Positions 19,173 through 59,851 of a stretch of DNA of 64,000 bases are shown here, one piece after another; position 1 is the stretch's first letter, and every line of letters begins with the position of its first letter. The stretch is from Clostridia bacterium. GTDB taxonomy: Bacteria > Bacillota > Clostridia > Lutisporales > Lutisporaceae. The notes under the pieces are model-generated. The model saw only the letters and a list, made by a program, of their open reading frames with translations. It was not told the DNA's origin and did no database searches. The position numbers were made by a program, and so were the translations under genes. The DNA lies in NCBI GenBank assembly GCA_035628995.1, contig DASPIR010000012.1, positions 1-64,000 of the forward strand, written 5' to 3'.

Positions 19173-20198
19173 ATGAATATATTCAAAATAAAATCAAATA
19201 ACGAAGACTTGGGGCAAACCCTTGTGGAAAACCTTTTCATAAGCCATTACATGCCTTCTGCTCCAGCAAACCATGTAAAGGTCTACCTTTTGGGACTCAA
19301 ATATTCCCAAAGCTATGTAAACAATATGCTTTCCAATGAGACTGTCGCAAAGACCCTTGGGATTTCCTGCGACGAGGTTAATGATGCATGGGGATATTGG
19401 ACGGAGCAGGGTATCGTAAAGCTGTATCCATATACAAACGCAGGGTCTGATGGAGGCTTTACTGTGGAATACCTCAGTATCAAGGAAATTGTATTAAATA
19501 TAAAGGAAAAGAAAGAAATCTCCGGCAAGTATAGTCCGGAGCGCATTATAGCCGCCAGGGGCAATCAGAGTGTGAGAGAGATGTTTGACTGCTTCCGCAA
19601 GCTGTTTGGAAGGGAACTGTCACCCAATGAGCTTTTCGTCTTTCTTGATTGGATGGACGACTACAACTTTCCTTCTGATGTTATTATGCTTCTGGTGGAG
19701 GACTGCATATCCAGGGATAAGAAAGACATGCCATACCTTAAGCAGGTTGCAAAGAACTGGTTCGATGCGGGCATTGACTCTTTGGAAAAGGCTGTCCAGT
19801 ACAATTCACGACATAAGGAAAAGTGGCAAAAATACAGTAAAGTGCGTAGCTTCTTAAGGCTTGGCCGGCAGCCAACCTCAGCAGAGGAAGAAATGCTGCA
19901 GAAGTGGTTCTATACCTTTGAATACAGCGATGATATCATACTTAAAGCATGTGAGCTTACCGCAAAGACCTTGAAGCCTTCGTTTTATTATATCGATAAG
20001 ATATTGACCGAATGGCGTGAGAAGGGCCTTTCTACTATACAAGAGGTTGAAGCATACCAGGTAAAGACTCCGAAGGAAGACAAGAAGACATCAAAGAATC
20101 AGAAACCCTCCTTTAATAATTTTACGAATCGTACTTATGATTCAAAAGCCTTAGAGGAAGCATGGCTAAAAAAAAGCAGGGGTGAATTAAGTGAATAA
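19173..20198 (+). CDS. dnaD: DnaD-domain replication initiation protein
   Basis: DnaD-family proteins remodel the origin and help load the helicase. The 341-residue protein has an N-terminal winged-helix region (about 20-110) and two DnaD C-domain-like repeats (about 120-200 and 215-290). YYIDKILTEWREKG fits the conserved DnaD YxxxI-W motif. The start has AGGAG at 19159. Its last eight bases overlap the next gene, the helicase loader, so the two are translationally coupled. Confidence 0.85.
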   Translation: MNIFKIKSNNEDLGQTLVENLFISHYMPSAPANHVKVYLLGLKYSQSYVNNMLSNETVAKTLGISCDEVNDAWGYWTEQGIVKLYPYTNAGSDGGFTVEYLSIKEIVLNIKEKKEISGKYSPERIIAARGNQSVREMFDCFRKLFGRELSPNELFVFLDWMDDYNFPSDVIMLLVEDCISRDKKDMPYLKQVAKNWFDAGIDSLEKAVQYNSRHKEKWQKYSKVRSFLRLGRQPTSAEEEMLQKWFYTFEYSDDIILKACELTAKTLKPSFYYIDKILTEWREKGLSTIQEVEAYQVKTPKEDKKTSKNQKPSFNNFTNRTYDSKALEEAWLKKSRGELSE

Positions 20199-21168
20199 TA
20201 GCCAAGATATCTTAAAGCAATATGAATTAATACAGAAAAAAAATAAAGAAGAGACAGAACAGCGCAAACTCACCCTTTACAGTAAGCTGCCACGTCTTAA
20301 ACAAATTGAAGATGAATTGGTAAGAGTAAGTATAGACATAACGCGCGCCATACTTAATGAATCTCAAATTGCTGAAGCTCTTCTAGAACAGCTTAGAAAA
20401 AAGCAATTGGATTTAAAAGTAGAGAAAGCTGAAATACTCTCTGCCAATAAGTATCCTATTGACTATTTGGATCCCATATATCTATGTAAAGCGTGCAAGG
20501 ATACGGGCTTTATCAGCTTTAATAAATGCAAATGCTATAGGCAGAAAGAAATATACTTGAATTATGAACAATCAAATTTAGTATCTACACTCAATAAAGA
20601 GAACTTTGAACAGTTCCGTTGGGACTATTATTCCAACGAGCCTGATGAGAGCGGCAGATCCCCTTTAAAAAACATGCAGGAAATATACAGAATGTGTATC
20701 GACTTTGTTGAGGGCTTTGATAAGCATGATACAAACTTGTTTTTTATTGGCAGCCCGGGACTTGGAAAGACATTCCTCTGCAACTCCATAGCCAAGGACC
20801 TGCTGGATAAGGGAAAAAGTGTTCTTTATAAGACAGTACCCGATTTAATTGATGCAATGAGAAAATATAAGTTTGACTTTGACAATGAAGAAAACAATAT
20901 GCCTTATTTACATGAGATATATAATTGCGACCTTCTGATAATGGATGATTTGGGTACTGAGCTTTCCACACAGTTCTCCAATCAAGTTATCTACAATATA
21001 TTGAATAAGCGAATAATCAGCAGCAAGAAGATGGTTATATCCACAAACTTAAGTGTTCCTGATTTTCAAAGCACATATTCCGAAAGGATAGTGTCAAGAA
21101 TTATTGGTAATTTTGAAGCATGTAAGTTTATGGGGAAAGACATAAGACTTAAAATGAAAGGTATCTAA
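20191..21168 (+). CDS. dnaI: DnaC/DnaI-like helicase loader ATPase
   Basis: This AAA+ ATPase is predicted to load the DnaB helicase made by the gene at 25.7-27.1 kb. The N-terminus is coiled (about 1-90). A Cys-rich patch follows (CKACKDTGFISFNKCKCY, about 105-123), a zinc-binding feature of DnaI N-domains. Then come Walker A GSPGLGKTF, Walker B LLIMDDLGTE and the SERIVSRI arginine-finger region. The start is a GTG with AGGGGTG, eight bases inside dnaD. The family is also called DnaC, and the symbol follows Firmicutes usage. Confidence 0.85.
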   Translation: MNNSQDILKQYELIQKKNKEETEQRKLTLYSKLPRLKQIEDELVRVSIDITRAILNESQIAEALLEQLRKKQLDLKVEKAEILSANKYPIDYLDPIYLCKACKDTGFISFNKCKCYRQKEIYLNYEQSNLVSTLNKENFEQFRWDYYSNEPDESGRSPLKNMQEIYRMCIDFVEGFDKHDTNLFFIGSPGLGKTFLCNSIAKDLLDKGKSVLYKTVPDLIDAMRKYKFDFDNEENNMPYLHEIYNCDLLIMDDLGTELSTQFSNQVIYNILNKRIISSKKMVISTNLSVPDFQSTYSERIVSRIIGNFEACKFMGKDIRLKMKGI

Positions 21169-23799: not shown

Positions 23800-25179
23800 T
23801 TAATGCTTGCTGTATTCTTCTCCAAGCAGCCTAGCAACATACACGCCACTTGCTGATGCTTGAGACAAGGAATGTGTCACTCCTGAGCTGTCGCCTAAAA
23901 TATATAGTCCTTTTATCGATGTCTCAAGATTATTATCCACTTCTACCTGAGAATTATAGAACTTCACTTCAACACCATACAATAAAGTGTCTTCATTTGC
24001 TGTACCGGGAGCAATCTTATCCAAAGCATAGATCATCTCTATTATATCATCCAACTGTCTTTTAGGAATGACAAGACTCAAATCTCCATATGTAGCATTT
24101 AAAGTAGGACTCAAAAAACTTTTCTCCATTCTTCTGTCGCTGGACCTACGTCCCTTTACCAGGTCCCCAAAGCGCTGCACCAGCACTCCACCGCCCAACA
24201 TATTGCTCAGCCTTGCTATGGACTCCCCATACTCATTGCTGTTCTTAAAAGGTTCTGTGAACCTGTTGGAAACAAGCAGTGCAAAATTTGTATTCTCTGT
24301 ATGGTACTTAGGGTCTGAGTAACTATGACCGTTTACTGTCACAATTCCATTGGTGTTTTCTGTAACAACCTCTCCATGTGGGTTCATACAGAAGGTCCTA
24401 ACCAAGTCATTGTATTTCTCTGTTCTATATACAATCTTACTTTCATATACCTGGCTTGTTATATGTTCAAATATTGATGCAGGAAGCTCGACACGCACTC
24501 CAATGTCAACCCGGTTGCTTTCTGTCTTTATACCTAGCTTCTCACTTATCTTAGATATCCACTTCGAGCCTGAGCGACCTGTGGCAAGAATCAGCCGATG
24601 ACTGGAGTACTCTTCCTTATCAGTTGCAACAGAGAACACCTCTCCTCGCTTTTCAATATCCACCACTTCAGTATTGAATATTATGTCTATCTTATCCTTA
24701 AGATAATCATATAGATTGTTCAGTATAACCCTGTTCCTGTCTGTACCCAAATGCCGCACCTTGGCATCAAGCAGGTGGAGGTCAAACCGTAATGCTTTTG
24801 TTCTTAGTTCATTGTTTTCTGTAGAATAAAGCCTGGCTTCAGCACCGCCCATTTTGCAGTTCACTTCGTCCACATAGTACATCAGATCTAAAGCTTCGTC
24901 CCTGCCAACATACTTGTAAAGATCCCCGCCAAAGTTATTGGTTATGTTATATTTTCCATCAGACATGCCTCCGGCTCCGCCAAAACCGTTCATAATACTG
25001 CATGTTGGGCAGTGTATGCATGACTTGATTTTTATATTATCTATAGGACATACTCTTTTTATGAGCATATTTCCTTTTTCAAGCATAGCGACCTTTATCT
25101 CCGGGTTGTATTGCATCAGCTCATATGCAGCAAATATTCCACTTGCACCAGCTCCGACTATTATTACATCATATTTCAT
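23800..25179 (-). CDS. FAD-dependent dehydrogenase-like protein
   Basis: The 459-residue protein has an N-terminal dinucleotide-binding motif (VIVGAGASGIFAA). A Cys-rich segment CIHCPTCS follows, leading into GFGGAGGMSDGKYN. The C-terminal FAD motif is GLYILGDSSGVTHSLSQASASG. This matches the broad group of uncharacterised NAD(P)/FAD-dependent oxidoreductases common in Clostridia, whose reaction is unknown. The ATG has AAGGAGG. It lies just upstream of purA (36 bp) on the same strand, so the two may be cotranscribed. Confidence 0.8.
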   Translation of the reverse strand: MKYDVIIVGAGASGIFAAYELMQYNPEIKVAMLEKGNMLIKRVCPIDNIKIKSCIHCPTCSIMNGFGGAGGMSDGKYNITNNFGGDLYKYVGRDEALDLMYYVDEVNCKMGGAEARLYSTENNELRTKALRFDLHLLDAKVRHLGTDRNRVILNNLYDYLKDKIDIIFNTEVVDIEKRGEVFSVATDKEEYSSHRLILATGRSGSKWISKISEKLGIKTESNRVDIGVRVELPASIFEHITSQVYESKIVYRTEKYNDLVRTFCMNPHGEVVTENTNGIVTVNGHSYSDPKYHTENTNFALLVSNRFTEPFKNSNEYGESIARLSNMLGGGVLVQRFGDLVKGRRSSDRRMEKSFLSPTLNATYGDLSLVIPKRQLDDIIEMIYALDKIAPGTANEDTLLYGVEVKFYNSQVEVDNNLETSIKGLYILGDSSGVTHSLSQASASGVYVARLLGEEYSKH

Positions 25180-25746
25180 ATAGACTGTGGCCTCCTTTAC
25201 TCAGACAATATGTAAAAAACAGTGTTTTCTATAATATGGAACACATTTTTACCCAAATTTCATCCTAACAGAATATGCATTTTAAGTCAATACAACACAG
25301 CTTTATTAAATATTTCACTAACTTTCGCAGTGCAATTATCTTCATTATTATATGGAGTTTGTGCAATAAATATGGAGTATGCAAACACTTTTTTGTGTTT
25401 GCTGGGCAGAATATGTAAACTGTTGACATTTTTCTCAATATTATTAAAAAAAGAAACAATCGTAAGAATCATAAGTTTCCGAATATTCTGATTCACACTA
25501 TCCACATTATCCACAGAGATATGCACATATGTTCGATTGGCTGTACAAACCCACTTGTATCAATATTTATACTACTATGTATATTTATTTGGTTAGCTTT
25601 ATGTTAATCCTTAAAATGCGTTATGCACAGTATCCACAGGTTATGCACAGGTAAAAGCAATGTGCATGTTATCAAAAAACAAGAAGCCTTCTACAAAATA
25701 CTACGAAAGCTCCGATATAACTACAAAAATTTTAATATTATGTAAA
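25180..25746. other. 567-bp intergenic region between dnaB and the FAD gene
   Basis: AT-rich and without a convincing gene. Its main content is the DnaA-box cluster at 25498-25649. The promoter of the FAD gene and the end of the dnaB transcript should also lie here, but no clear terminator is visible. Confidence 0.5.
25498..25649. promoter_or_regulatory. DnaA-box cluster beyond dnaB
   Basis: TTATCCACA (25507-25515) is a perfect box. TTATGCACA (25621-25629 and 25641-25649) also fits TTATNCACA. CTATCCACA (25498-25506) and GTATCCACA (25630-25638) differ at the first base. Five boxes in about 150 bp, all in the same orientation, lie about 33 kb from oriC. This resembles the DnaA-box clusters that modulate initiation in B. 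subtilis. Confidence 0.6.
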
Positions 25747-27093
25747 TTAACTGTTGGCTATGTATTTCTCTTTATTCACAAACTTTGTGAACTGTCCAAG
25801 CCAAACCAGCTCAACGTTTCCTGTAGGACCGTTTCTCTGCTTGGCTATAATAACCTCGCCTATGTTCTTTTTATCAGAGTCAGGATGGTAGTAGTCATCC
25901 CTATAAAGGAACATGACCACATCGGCGTCCTGCTCTATGGCTCCGGACTCTCTAAGATCCGAAAGTATCGGTCTGTGGTCTGCTCTCATTTCCGGAGCAC
26001 GGGAAAGCTGAGAAAGTGCAACTACCGGTACGTTGATTTCCCTGGCAAGCGCCTTTAGTGATCTAGATATTTCAGATATTTCCTGCTGTCTGTTGTCAGA
26101 GCTGCTTTTGCCCTGCATCAGCTGAAGATAGTCTATTACTATAAGCCCTAGGTTATGTTCCAGCTTGAGCCTCCTGCATTTTGCCCTCATTTCAGTTATT
26201 GATATAGCCGGAGTGTCATCTATGAAAATTGGAGCTTCCGAAAGTGGTCCCATCGATCTTGCAAGCTTTACCCATTCATCCTCATTAATATCACCTGTCC
26301 TCAGGCGATGCGCATCAATAAGAGCTTCTGCACAAAGCAGTCTCTGGGTAAGCTGCTCCTTTGACATTTCAAGGCTGAATATTGCAGTTGTAATTTTCTC
26401 CCTCACTGCGGCATGCTGGACAATATTCATCATAAAAGAGGATTTGCCCATGGAAGGTCTTGCAGCAATCAGCACCAGATCTGATTTCTGAAGTCCTGAA
26501 AGCATACCGTCCAAATCATTGAATCCGGTTGGCACCCCTGTGAGCTTTCCCTTGTTGAGATACAGCTGTTCTATCATGTCGAAATTTACATTCAATATGT
26601 TCTTTACATGGGTAAAGCCCTGAGTTGACCTATTTAACGAAATGTTAAATATGCCCTTTTCCGCGCCATCTATTATTTCTCCGATATCCTCCGAGGCCTG
26701 ATAGCTCTTGGAAATTATCTCATTTGATGATTTAATAAGCCTTCGGAGCAACGACTTGTCCTCGATAATTTTAGCATAATTTTTGACATTATGAGTAGAT
26801 GGAACAGCATCCATAAGGTTGGTCAGAAAAGTTATTCCTCCGACTGCATCCAGTGTGTTCCTGGTCTTGAGCTTTTCGGTAAGTGTGATGAGATCTACCG
26901 GCTCACCTCTGTCATATATATCCACTATCGCTTCAAATATCTCTTTGTGGGCTTCCCTGTAAAAGTCCTCGCCGCCAATCAGCTCTGTTGCGGTAGATAT
27001 GGCTTCCTTATCAAGGAGCATGGATCCCAAAACAGACTGTTCGGCCTCTATACTGTTGGGAGGTATTCTTTGTATCATATCGCTCAATATCAT
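25747..27093 (-). CDS. dnaB: Replicative DNA helicase DnaB (B. subtilis DnaC)
   Basis: This hexameric helicase unwinds DNA ahead of the fork. The N-terminal primase-interacting domain begins RIPPNSIEAEQSVLGSMLLD. The RecA-like domain has Walker A ARPSMGKSS, Walker B GLIVIDYLQLM and the late LSDLRESGAIEQDADVV. Start choice is ambiguous. The ATG at 27093 sits only three bases from GAGGAG, and a TTG three codons later has better spacing. The gene begins next to the lonC stop and ends the six-gene unit that starts with the MazG-like gene. Confidence 0.93.
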   Translation of the reverse strand: MILSDMIQRIPPNSIEAEQSVLGSMLLDKEAISTATELIGGEDFYREAHKEIFEAIVDIYDRGEPVDLITLTEKLKTRNTLDAVGGITFLTNLMDAVPSTHNVKNYAKIIEDKSLLRRLIKSSNEIISKSYQASEDIGEIIDGAEKGIFNISLNRSTQGFTHVKNILNVNFDMIEQLYLNKGKLTGVPTGFNDLDGMLSGLQKSDLVLIAARPSMGKSSFMMNIVQHAAVREKITTAIFSLEMSKEQLTQRLLCAEALIDAHRLRTGDINEDEWVKLARSMGPLSEAPIFIDDTPAISITEMRAKCRRLKLEHNLGLIVIDYLQLMQGKSSSDNRQQEISEISRSLKALAREINVPVVALSQLSRAPEMRADHRPILSDLRESGAIEQDADVVMFLYRDDYYHPDSDKKNIGEVIIAKQRNGPTGNVELVWLGQFTKFVNKEKYIANS

Positions 27094-27109
27094 CAACTCC
27101 TCGGAATTA

Positions 27110-28942
27110 CTATTCCTCAAACATAAATCTGATCATTTCTTGAATATTGCCTGCAGTAATTATATTTATACCATCTATCCCCTTGGCCTCATCCTTGTTC
27201 TCCTCAGGGATAATAACATTCTTAAAGCCCGCCCTTTTAGCTCCGTATATCTTTTCCACAATGCCCCCAACTGCCTTGATAGAGCCTCTTATGGATATTT
27301 CCCCGGTAATACAAGTGTCCTGCCGTGCCGGACGTTCCAATACCGCCGAATACACAAGACAGGTCATTGCCGCTCCTGCCGAAGGTCCGTCGACTTTCCC
27401 GCCGCCTACGCAATTCACATGTATGTCGAATTTATTCATATTCCTGCCGGTTATATTTCTTACAACTGAAAGGGCATTGAAAAGAGAGTCTTTGGTCATG
27501 CTTCCTGCTGTTTCATTGAACCTTATACTGCCTGTCTCATCTTCTCTTGTAAAACACACCGCTTCAAACTCAATAACACTGCCAAGAAAACCATTTACGC
27601 CAAGACCGTTTATGCGCCCAACTTCTTTTGTACTTCTTGCCTTTTTCTTATTTACAGGTACGAATCTGCCTTTGCTTATTACATCCTGAATGCAATCAGT
27701 GGATATCTCGATATTCTTATCTTCCCCGCTGTCACATATCCTGCTGCTGTAGCAGTCTGCCAAAATATTAACTGCCCTTCTGGCTTCATAGGTGTAACTG
27801 CTTATAAGCTCCGCTCCCTCATCACTTATACCTGCACCAAGCTTATTTGCCGCATTTTTCACTATCTCACTTATATCAGGGCCGTTGAGTGGATTAAAGA
27901 AAACCTCTGTGCAGCGTGACCGTAGAGCCGGGTTTATATCTTCAGGAGATCTGGTAGTTGCTCCTATGAGTACAAAGTCAGCCGGAGCTCCTTCCTCAAA
28001 CAAAAGCTTTATATAAAGCGGTATATTCTCATTATTAATATCATAATAGGAAGAATCAAACTTAACCTTCTTATCCTCAAGCACCTTGAGCAGCTTGTTC
28101 TGGAACATCACGTCCAATTCACCTATCTCGTCTATAAAGAGCACTCCTCCATGGGCTTCTGTGACCAAGCCTGGTTTGGGCTCAGGAACACCCATCTCAG
28201 CAAGCTCCTTATTAGCACCTTGAAAAATAGGGTCGTGCACTGATCCTAATAAAGGGTTTATTGACTCTCTTGGATCCCACCTTAGTGTCGTAGCATCAAC
28301 CTCAACAAATTTGGCATTCTTATCAAAGGGAGTGTATTTCCTGCCCTTGGCAATATCCAGGGCAAGACGTGCGGCAGTGGTTTTTCCGACCCCTGGAGGC
28401 CCATACAATATCACATGCTGTGGAAAGGGCGAGGCTATCTTGGATATTAACGCAGTAACAGAGTTTTGCTGCCCTATTATTTCCTCTTGTTTTTTGGGAC
28501 GCATCACGTCCATTATTGATTTTGAAAGCTTTATTAGCTTCATTCGCTCCAAGTCCGCATATTTTTTGAGGGTAGAAGCATTTTCAATACCTGTATGCTT
28601 TTTGATTACCTGAAGCTTCATTTCATTCAGGTATTCTTTTTCCCTTGTCTCCATACGTAACAATACTTCTTTTTTTATACCGTCTTCTATATACCTCTTG
28701 GCAGCAACATCTGAAAGCTTGTCCTTAATATCTTCGATTAAAAACTCCAGCCTATCCTCCGCGATTTCTTCGGTTTTCATTTTGCCAGATACTATTTCAT
28801 GCAATACATAAACCTTTTCTTTGTTATCCATAACGCTGTCTAGTTTTCTAGTTTTTTCACTAGAATAAAGTTTTTTCGTGAAATCAACAAGCACGTCAAT
28901 TGATACATCTTTGCTGCGAATACTGCTATGATTATGACCCAA
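27110..28942 (-). CDS. lonC: Lon-family ATP-dependent protease, LonC-like
   Basis: The 610-residue protein has no LonA N-terminal domain. It has a coiled helical region (about 1-140), an AAA+ domain with GPPGVGKTTAARL and FIDEIGELD (about 160-400), and a C-terminal Lon protease domain with the catalytic Ser in DGPSAGAAM and the Lys in GGIVEKIYGAKRAG. It resembles sporulation-linked LonB/LonC and is longer than LonB, so I favour LonC, a family restricted to spore formers. It starts with TTG after GAAGGGG. It lies between rplI and dnaB in a continuous operon. Confidence 0.82.
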   Translation of the reverse strand: MGHNHSSIRSKDVSIDVLVDFTKKLYSSEKTRKLDSVMDNKEKVYVLHEIVSGKMKTEEIAEDRLEFLIEDIKDKLSDVAAKRYIEDGIKKEVLLRMETREKEYLNEMKLQVIKKHTGIENASTLKKYADLERMKLIKLSKSIMDVMRPKKQEEIIGQQNSVTALISKIASPFPQHVILYGPPGVGKTTAARLALDIAKGRKYTPFDKNAKFVEVDATTLRWDPRESINPLLGSVHDPIFQGANKELAEMGVPEPKPGLVTEAHGGVLFIDEIGELDVMFQNKLLKVLEDKKVKFDSSYYDINNENIPLYIKLLFEEGAPADFVLIGATTRSPEDINPALRSRCTEVFFNPLNGPDISEIVKNAANKLGAGISDEGAELISSYTYEARRAVNILADCYSSRICDSGEDKNIEISTDCIQDVISKGRFVPVNKKKARSTKEVGRINGLGVNGFLGSVIEFEAVCFTREDETGSIRFNETAGSMTKDSLFNALSVVRNITGRNMNKFDIHVNCVGGGKVDGPSAGAAMTCLVYSAVLERPARQDTCITGEISIRGSIKAVGGIVEKIYGAKRAGFKNVIIPEENKDEAKGIDGINIITAGNIQEMIRFMFEE

Positions 28943-57799: not shown

Positions 57800-58519
57800 A
57801 ATACACACCCCCTAACTTCTGTACTACATAAATCACACTAGCATTCTTACATTTTATCAAACAGACAGCTCTGTATAATAGGTTAGGCCTAATGTTGGCT
57901 GCGATGATGGAATGTAATCGCATTTGTAAGATCTATATCATGCATTTATACAATAAAGCATAATTCACCACTTTACTATTAAAATTATATAGACATTGAC
58001 AGTTCGTGTCAATATAATATTTTGTCCCAATTCTATACATTTTACTACCCTTCAAGGTGTTTAGCATATTGACAATTTATCAATTTCGACTATTAGTATA
58101 TGCATTATTGCTTTCCGTTCTTGTGGATAAATGTATCATCTCACCTCAAATATTGTGGATAATTATCTTATTTTTATTGAACTTAGCCTTTTGTTTTGCT
58201 ATTATAGTTATATGATTGTGTATAACCCTATAATTTTATAAAAGTTATCAACAACTGTGTATAATTTGTGTATAACTCAAGGGTATTGTGTATTAATTAC
58301 TTCTTTGTTGTCTATAATCTAATAAATACCTATAAGTTATATGTGAATAAGTACATTTTTTTCTTGTTGACAAGATAAAATATATTATTTTTATACAGAA
58401 TTATATTAACAATTTATACACATTTTTATTCATTATTATGTTGTCATATGGCTGTCTACGTTTCATAAAGTCGTTGTGTATAAGCATGTTAATAATTTAG
58501 TTGGTTAAGGAGGCTGGGT
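57800..58519. other. oriC: oriC, rpmH-dnaA part: DnaA-box cluster
   Basis: This 720-bp AT-rich gap between divergent rpmH and dnaA holds at least seven perfect TTATNCACA boxes: minus-strand boxes at 58122, 58154, 58217, 58256, 58267 and 58475, and a plus-strand box at 58414. One-mismatch boxes lie at 58245 and 58391. It is the upstream half of a bipartite Firmicutes origin and should also contain the dnaA promoter, which DnaA can repress. The rpmH promoter lies at the left end. Confidence 0.88.
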
Positions 58520-59851
58520 ATGTACTCTCATATCACAGATATCTGGGAAAAGACTCTAGATGTAATAAAAGTTGAATTAACAGAAGTAAGTTTCAATACT
58601 TGGCTTAAAGCAATACAACCTATTTCTACGCGGGACAACCTTGTTACGTTTTCCGTGCCTGATGATTTTACAAAGGGAATACTTGAAGCAAGATATGTTA
58701 CTCTTATAAAAAACGCTTTGAAGCAGGTTTCCTCTGAATATTACGATATCAAATTCATAATACCTACTGAAGAGAATTATGCTTCTATAATGAGGGAGAA
58801 TACTGAGCGAAATCAAATAGAGGAAACAGTTAACACCTCCCTAAATCCCAAGTATACTTTTGATACCTTCGTTATAGGCAACAGCAACCGCCTTGCCCAT
58901 GCAGCCTCGGTTGCAGTAGCAGAATCACCCGCAAAGGCGTACAACCCTCTTTTTATTTATGGAGGTGTTGGGTTGGGAAAAACTCATCTTATGCACGCAA
59001 TAGGCCACTATATATCAAAACAGAATAAAAAAGCAAAAGTGGTTTATATTTCTTCTGAAACCTTCACAAATGAACTTATTAACTCAATTAGAGATGATAG
59101 AAACAATGAGTTCAGAGGTAAATATAGAAATGTAGACGTACTATTAATTGACGATATACAATTCATTGCTGGAAAGGAAAGTACCCAGGAGGAGTTCTTC
59201 CACACGTTCAACTCTTTATATGATGCAAATAAGCAAATAATTATCTCAAGTGATAGACCTCCAAAAGAAATCCGAACCTTGGAGGATAGGCTCAGATCAA
59301 GGTTTGAGCAAGGGTTGATAGCAGATATACAACCACCTGATCTTGAAACCAGGGTAGCTATATTGAAGAAAAAGGCAAGATCAGAAAACCTCTCTATTTC
59401 AGATAATGTAATGCTTCTTATAGCAAAAAAAATTCATTCAAATATTAGAGAGCTTGAAGGAGCTTTAATTAGAATAGTAGCGTATTCTTCTCTTACAAAT
59501 GGTGAGATAAATGAAGATCTTACAAATGAAGCTTTAAAGGACATAATATCCAACTCCAAGCCAAAGCTGGTTACACCCGCTGCTATAAAAGATGTTGTTG
59601 GTCAGTACTACAGTATAAAGCTGGAAGATTTCAATGCAAAGAAAAGAAACAAATCAATAGTTTTGCCAAGGCAAATTGCGATGTTCCTTTGCAGAGAACT
59701 TACAGACCTTTCCTTGCCAAGGATTGGTGAAGAATTTGGCAGGGACCACACCACTATAATGCATGCTTATGAGAAGATATCTAATGATATGAAAATTGAC
59801 AGTCAATTGAAATCAGTTTTAGAAGAGCTCAAAAGCAAAGTTGAAACCTAA
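58520..59851 (+). CDS. dnaA: Chromosomal replication initiator protein DnaA
   Basis: DnaA binds DnaA boxes and opens the origin. Domains over 443 residues: helicase-interacting domain I (about 1-80), a short linker, AAA+ domain III ([35 protein letters not shown], box [11 protein letters not shown]), and DNA-binding domain IV with the signature [21 protein letters not shown] precedes the ATG. It is the first gene of the operon running through dnaN to gyrB. Confidence 0.98.

Follow-up and report, generated by a model that had tools for sequence, protein, structure and literature searches.

Little is known about how clostridia time the initiation of chromosome replication; a review reports datA and DARS to be absent from B. 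subtilis, and the DnaA-box clusters of B. subtilis have been studied in that lineage. Here, we focus on a group of predicted DnaA boxes beside the helicase gene dnaB in a Clostridia genome of the Lutispora group, and ask whether it is more than a chance assembly and whether it is likely to act on initiation, on a neighbouring gene or in some other way. The window is a stretch of 64,000 nucleotides, and positions given without another source refer to it.

Architecture and density of the cluster

The cluster lies in an A+T-rich intergenic gap of 567 bp, flanked on one side by the 3′ end of dnaB and on the other by a gene for a FAD-dependent protein (hereafter the FAD gene), at a distance of 32.9 kb from dnaA. 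The features are listed below.

23800–25179, minus strand: FAD-dependent protein gene
25489–25649, plus strand: whole DnaA-box cluster, predicted from sequence, non-chance and conserved in the Lutispora family
25489–25497, plus strand: weak DnaA box TGATTCACA, its place retained in the Lutispora family; other genera have TAATCCACA/AAATCCACA
25498–25506, plus strand: DnaA box CTATCCACA; most relatives have TTATCCACA here
25507–25527, plus strand: double DnaA box TTATCCACA-GAG-ATATGCACA (single boxes at 25507 and 25519), laid out as in E. coli double boxes
25511–25535, plus strand: 25-bp core CCACAGAGATATGCACATATGTTCG, identical in 19/19 aligned family loci
25522–25535, minus strand: LexA-operator-like site CGAACATATGTGCA, overlapping a DnaA box, with a perfect first half and two mismatches in the second
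25621–25649, plus strand: distal box set TTATGCACA, GTATCCACA, TTATGCACA (at 25621, 25630 and 25641)
25747–27120, minus strand: dnaB, replicative helicase
25772–25780, plus strand: exact DnaA box in the dnaB 3′ end, probably outside the element
58122–58495, unstranded: oriC box set upstream of dnaA (58520–59851)

Boxes were called on the same (plus) strand with at most one mismatch to TTATNCACA, which yields seven predicted boxes, every one on the plus strand: three exact copies of TTATNCACA, three that differ in the first base only and one weaker site. The first-pass annotation had counted five boxes between 25498 and 25649; its three exact copies stand, but this interval holds six boxes, and three rather than two of them miss the first base. 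A gap of 93 bp separates the proximal boxes (from the end of the box at 25519) from the distal set, and in relatives a distal box lies 100–105 bp from the core box.

When a cluster was defined as at least three sites (at most one mismatch, CACA kept, at least one exact) inside 160 bp, the window contained the dnaB-side cluster, two clusters at oriC and no other, in agreement with the initial claim that such a density is matched in the window only at oriC. When the 567-bp gap was shuffled 2000 times with its dinucleotides preserved, no shuffle reached seven sites (mean 0.8) or three exact sites, and 100 shuffles of the whole window gave a mean of 0.03 clusters. The genome carries 190 exact boxes per 3.65 Mb, and the Poisson expectation for three exact boxes in 143 bp is ~0.0017 per genome; the random density across the genome that the annotation held against its own proposal was not what was found. 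These shuffles and the Poisson estimate rule out a chance origin. In having a density well above chance outside oriC, the cluster resembles the extra-oriC DnaA-box clusters (DBCs) of the B. subtilis type. Genome-wide scans covered 3-bp-spaced double boxes and exact boxes paired on one strand within 30 bp; five such exact pairs were returned (one at the dnaB side, three at oriC and one upstream of hpf), and the scans point to the site upstream of hpf as the one comparable non-oriC spot in the 3.65-Mb genome besides the dnaB-side cluster. An RNA element was rejected, as Rfam gave no hit in region 24900–26100 at E values up to 1. The intergenic gap of the window contains no terminator-like site, and its promoter-like sites are not above those in shuffles.

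Conservation of sequence, position and spacing

The search for dnaB covered 61 genomes. In the window's family, a cluster is found downstream of dnaB in all 20 assessable genomes; counted by locus, 19/21 carry it 3′ of dnaB, one stops at a contig end 45 bp past dnaB, and the last (G009) has the core ~1.6 kb downstream of dnaB. When 19 loci were aligned, 34 of the 38 columns of the core showed no variation, and all loci shared the 25-bp CCACAGAGATATGCACATATGTTCG without a difference, whereas outside the core 11 of 179 ungapped columns are invariant. In the class sample, 18 of 19 family genomes have the core, each in a single copy, which led us to reject a repeat or mobile element; with two mismatches, it occurs in one of 372 other genomes. 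Control regions were empty: no cluster was present in the 58 kb that comprise dnaB and the DNA upstream of it at family loci, nor in 107 kb around lexA. Named genomes were also scanned and yielded 21 contigs with the core, whose titles include Lutispora, Sporosalibacterium and Thermohalobacteraceae. One contig titled Calditrichales (L059, JAJGRE010000005.1) has a Lutispora-type core, and its title is probably wrong. An exact TATGCACANNTGTTCG is present in 23 genomes, and in three of them (L079, L080 and L101) the match was judged to be chance; none of the three adjoins dnaB, two lie inside coding frames and that in L101 lies between frames.

The second extra-oriC cluster (G000 contig 33, 196429–196495; L217, L225) is situated upstream of hpf. 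A cluster of similar build is present in 17/17 family loci (hpf was matched in 17 of 22 genomes), so that two or more extra-oriC clusters are retained in the family.

Beyond the family, the match in G326, whose core carries two mismatches, sits exactly between dnaB and purA and thus behaves as a true homologue should. In this second family, 18 of 19 genomes have a cluster at the equivalent place: it lies within 1.5 kb at 15 of 19 dnaB loci, and at three more the core is 1.9–2.1 kb off, behind inserted genes, while the cluster definition is not reached in G406. For further families of the same order, 40 loci were taken from a sample of 98 genomes. A cluster is present in 24 of the 40, namely in f88 (4/4), f89 (3/3), f58 (6/7), f92 (5/7), f87 (3/4), f91 (2/3) and f48 (1/1), and is absent from f77 (0/5), f81 (0/3), f90 (0/2) and f2 (0/1, with a second f2 locus also lacking it). 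Among 26 loci from 26 more distant families, none has a cluster. Two loci with short flanks and no cluster, L027 (418 bp) and L029 (261 bp), are not part of these tallies. The absence of conservation in relatives, which the first-pass annotation had named as speaking against the site, did not materialize: the cluster is retained in the family and beyond.

Box spacing is stereotyped, with tandem steps of 9 and 12 bp in the window's family and, for most other families, head-to-head pairs spaced by 25/26 or 36 bp. Both tandem steps occur in each of the 16 family loci counted. Head-to-head pairs at 25 or 26 bp are found in f70 (16/17), f88 (4/4), f89 (2/3), f58 (5/7) and f91 (2/2), as well as at 15 of 17 hpf loci, and pairs at 36 bp in f92 (4/5) and f87 (3/3); the 25- and 36-bp spacings are about one helical turn apart. 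The counts for f92, f87 and f91 concern cluster-positive loci only. The f70 count omits L115, which has no cluster, and L103, which is close to L102, and uses L050, L053 and L054 in place of three loci with the cluster more than 1.5 kb away. Probabilities attached to these spacings are a guide at most, the distances having been picked after inspection and related families treated as independent. The window's own dnaB cluster has no head-to-head pair at 25/26 or 36 bp.

The surrounding genes are far from constant. The interval between dnaB and the cluster is empty or holds a GNAT acetyltransferase gene or a rubrerythrin-like gene (L188, two boxes only), and boxes overlap the final codons of the GNAT gene at several loci; the gene past the cluster is, depending on the lineage, the FAD gene, a DUF1858 gene, an HD-domain gene, ilvD, purA or a convergent loader gene. 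Neighbours thus turn over while the cluster persists, which argues against control of one particular gene. The site had been proposed to control either initiation or the adjacent FAD gene. The first half of this proposal holds up, in that the cluster is oriC-proximal and, from its sequence and position conserved across families, may control initiation, whereas FAD-gene control appears unlikely, as the FAD gene is not retained beside the cluster in other families. In one genus (g7, L015–L021), dnaB is separated from the cluster by a GC-rich inverted repeat, located just 3′ of dnaB and with T following it, which looks terminator-like by eye.

Less likely readings: transcription, a second origin, DARS and LexA

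DnaA could serve here as a transcription factor or roadblock, controlling read-through from dnaB or a downstream unit such as the FAD gene or purA. B. subtilis DnaA regulates genes close to its clusters, E. coli DnaA binds upstream of purH, and purA lies downstream at many of the loci; since the gene directly past the cluster varies by lineage, some cluster loci have no purA in the stretch read (≤2.6 kb) and promoter-like sites are no more frequent than in shuffles, we regard this account as unlikely. The same loci weaken control specific to purA, although some stretches may fall short of that gene. We give hardly any credence to a cryptic second replication origin next to the helicase gene, which would draw on the seven boxes in an A+T-rich gap and on the DnaD-like and loader genes 4–6 kb away: the sign of the GC skew switches at 56–64 kb rather than at 25 kb, and the window has an ordinary oriC, accompanied by dnaA, at a distance of 33 kb.

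Two further accounts take up details of the box arrangement. The site might be a DARS- or datA-like element that alters the nucleotide state of DnaA rather than merely holding the protein. Like E. coli DARS1, DARS2 and datA, it is a conserved extra-oriC locus with fixed box spacing and a 12-bp tandem step, relatives and the hpf site combine opposed boxes with the 12-bp tandem pair, and head-to-head DnaA contacts matter at DARS. DARS1 and DARS2 have boxes at 0(+), 12(+) and 26(−), a spacing similar to but not the same as that seen here; their opposed box, 14 (nearest) and 26 bp away, has its counterpart at 25/26 or 36 bp in relatives and is missing from the window's dnaB cluster, where no opposed box occurs near 25533–25541. 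A review also gives datA, DARS, IHF and Hda as absent from B. subtilis, and we consider such an element very improbable. The remaining account would make the core a composite switch, with LexA on CGAACATATGTGCA competing with DnaA and SOS induction altering the amount of DnaA held. In the same genome, lexA is preceded by the operator CGAACATATGTTTG, which has CGAACATATGT in common with the core tail; GAACANNTGTG is seen again in the second family, where 15 of 19 genomes have it; and in f48 (G088, L212 ~732–776, dnaB orientation) a full LexA-type site, CGAACAATTGTTTG, directly adjoins the DnaA boxes. Competition between DnaA and LexA on overlapping sites is known at the E. coli uvrB promoter (PMC6015884), where DnaA-box6 lies over LexA-box4; that, however, is a repair-gene promoter, whereas no promoter is evident here and the LexA site is good in one half only. 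The two mismatches in the second half-site rule out a full LexA operator (CGAAC N4 GTTYG) in the core, the tail has been lost from G403, G404 and G406 despite their having lexA (G408 has GAACG), most other families are without it, and the likeness was spotted after the fact. No match in the own genome with at most one mismatch to CGAACNNNNGTTCG includes the core tail. We therefore hold a LexA switch to be quite unlikely, and the overlap of the core with half a LexA operator, as predicted, to be intriguing but unproven.

Probable holding of DnaA near oriC

The cluster is thus a real and conserved set of predicted DnaA boxes, and probably a true control site that holds DnaA near oriC. Its best explanation, which we favour with some reserve, is an oriC-proximal DnaA-box cluster of the B. 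subtilis type that holds DnaA and acts on initiation. The density above chance argues for this reading, as do the core, identical in 19/19 loci against 11/179 invariant columns outside it, and a place kept across families while controls are empty and neighbours change. The DnaA of the window's genome contains the C-terminal domain that binds such boxes. In the five genomes of the order for which a position of dnaA was obtained, dnaB lies 32.9, 27.4, 32.0, 45.6 and 31.0 kb from it; the 45.6-kb case belongs to f81, which has no cluster, and the 32.9-kb case (G417) has two boxes only. The four genomes outside f81, at 27–33 kb, further favour DnaA holding. Support also comes from the layout of the core, which is that of DnaA-bound E. 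coli boxes: in vivo, E. coli DnaA binds pairs of boxes that are 2–3 bp apart, with GAG as the spacer in several of them (PMC11317965), and the two same-strand boxes at 25507–25527 share this 3-bp GAG spacer, although here they are predicted sites set in a longer same-strand array. Finally, deletion of six such clusters in B. subtilis leads to early initiation (PMC5295017, PMC13220808).

From these observations, we infer DnaA binding, bridging and an effect on timing. Several DnaA molecules would assemble at the cluster: the double box with its 3-bp spacer and the adjacent tandem boxes would serve as the loading site, from which DnaA might bridge to the distal set about ten helical turns off. 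Lying ~33 kb from oriC, the cluster would be duplicated soon after initiation, and the duplicated copies could draw DnaA away from oriC and damp early or repeated initiation. Against DnaA holding, the cluster is missing in f77, f81, f90 and 26 distant-family loci and is not generally required, its seven boxes are a small share of the genome's DnaA sites, titration alone does not explain why the core is also invariant outside its DnaA boxes, and a review states that no significant roles of single DBCs have been found in B. subtilis.

The B. subtilis DBCs (Okumura 2012, via PMC5295017, PMC13220808 and PMC4447404) likewise pack DnaA boxes densely at places other than oriC, in several cases close to it, and are thought to set free DnaA. 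None of the eight strong B. subtilis regions lies at dnaC-purA or hpf, and the cluster considered here differs in its conserved core and LexA-like tail and in being predicted from sequence. E. coli also concentrates boxes near oriC, which has been linked to titration (PMC12371093). In our literature search, no paper was recognised as describing the dnaB-adjacent site. A bolder proposal, to which we assign a small chance, is that several clostridial families share a so far undescribed element for replication control that is deeply conserved. It would be a stereotyped site of DnaA assembly ~30 kb from oriC by dnaB, paired with the hpf site in the Lutispora family, and its LexA half-operator, fused with a DnaA box, would couple DnaA storage to DNA damage. 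The place kept across families, the turnover of neighbours and an invariant 25-bp core to mutate make the question testable. As a separate observation, genes for a DnaD-like and a helicase-loader-like protein lie at 19173–21168 of the window, convergent to purA, the FAD gene and dnaB, and the genes for the helicase, its loader and the DnaD-like protein all fall inside 8 kb.
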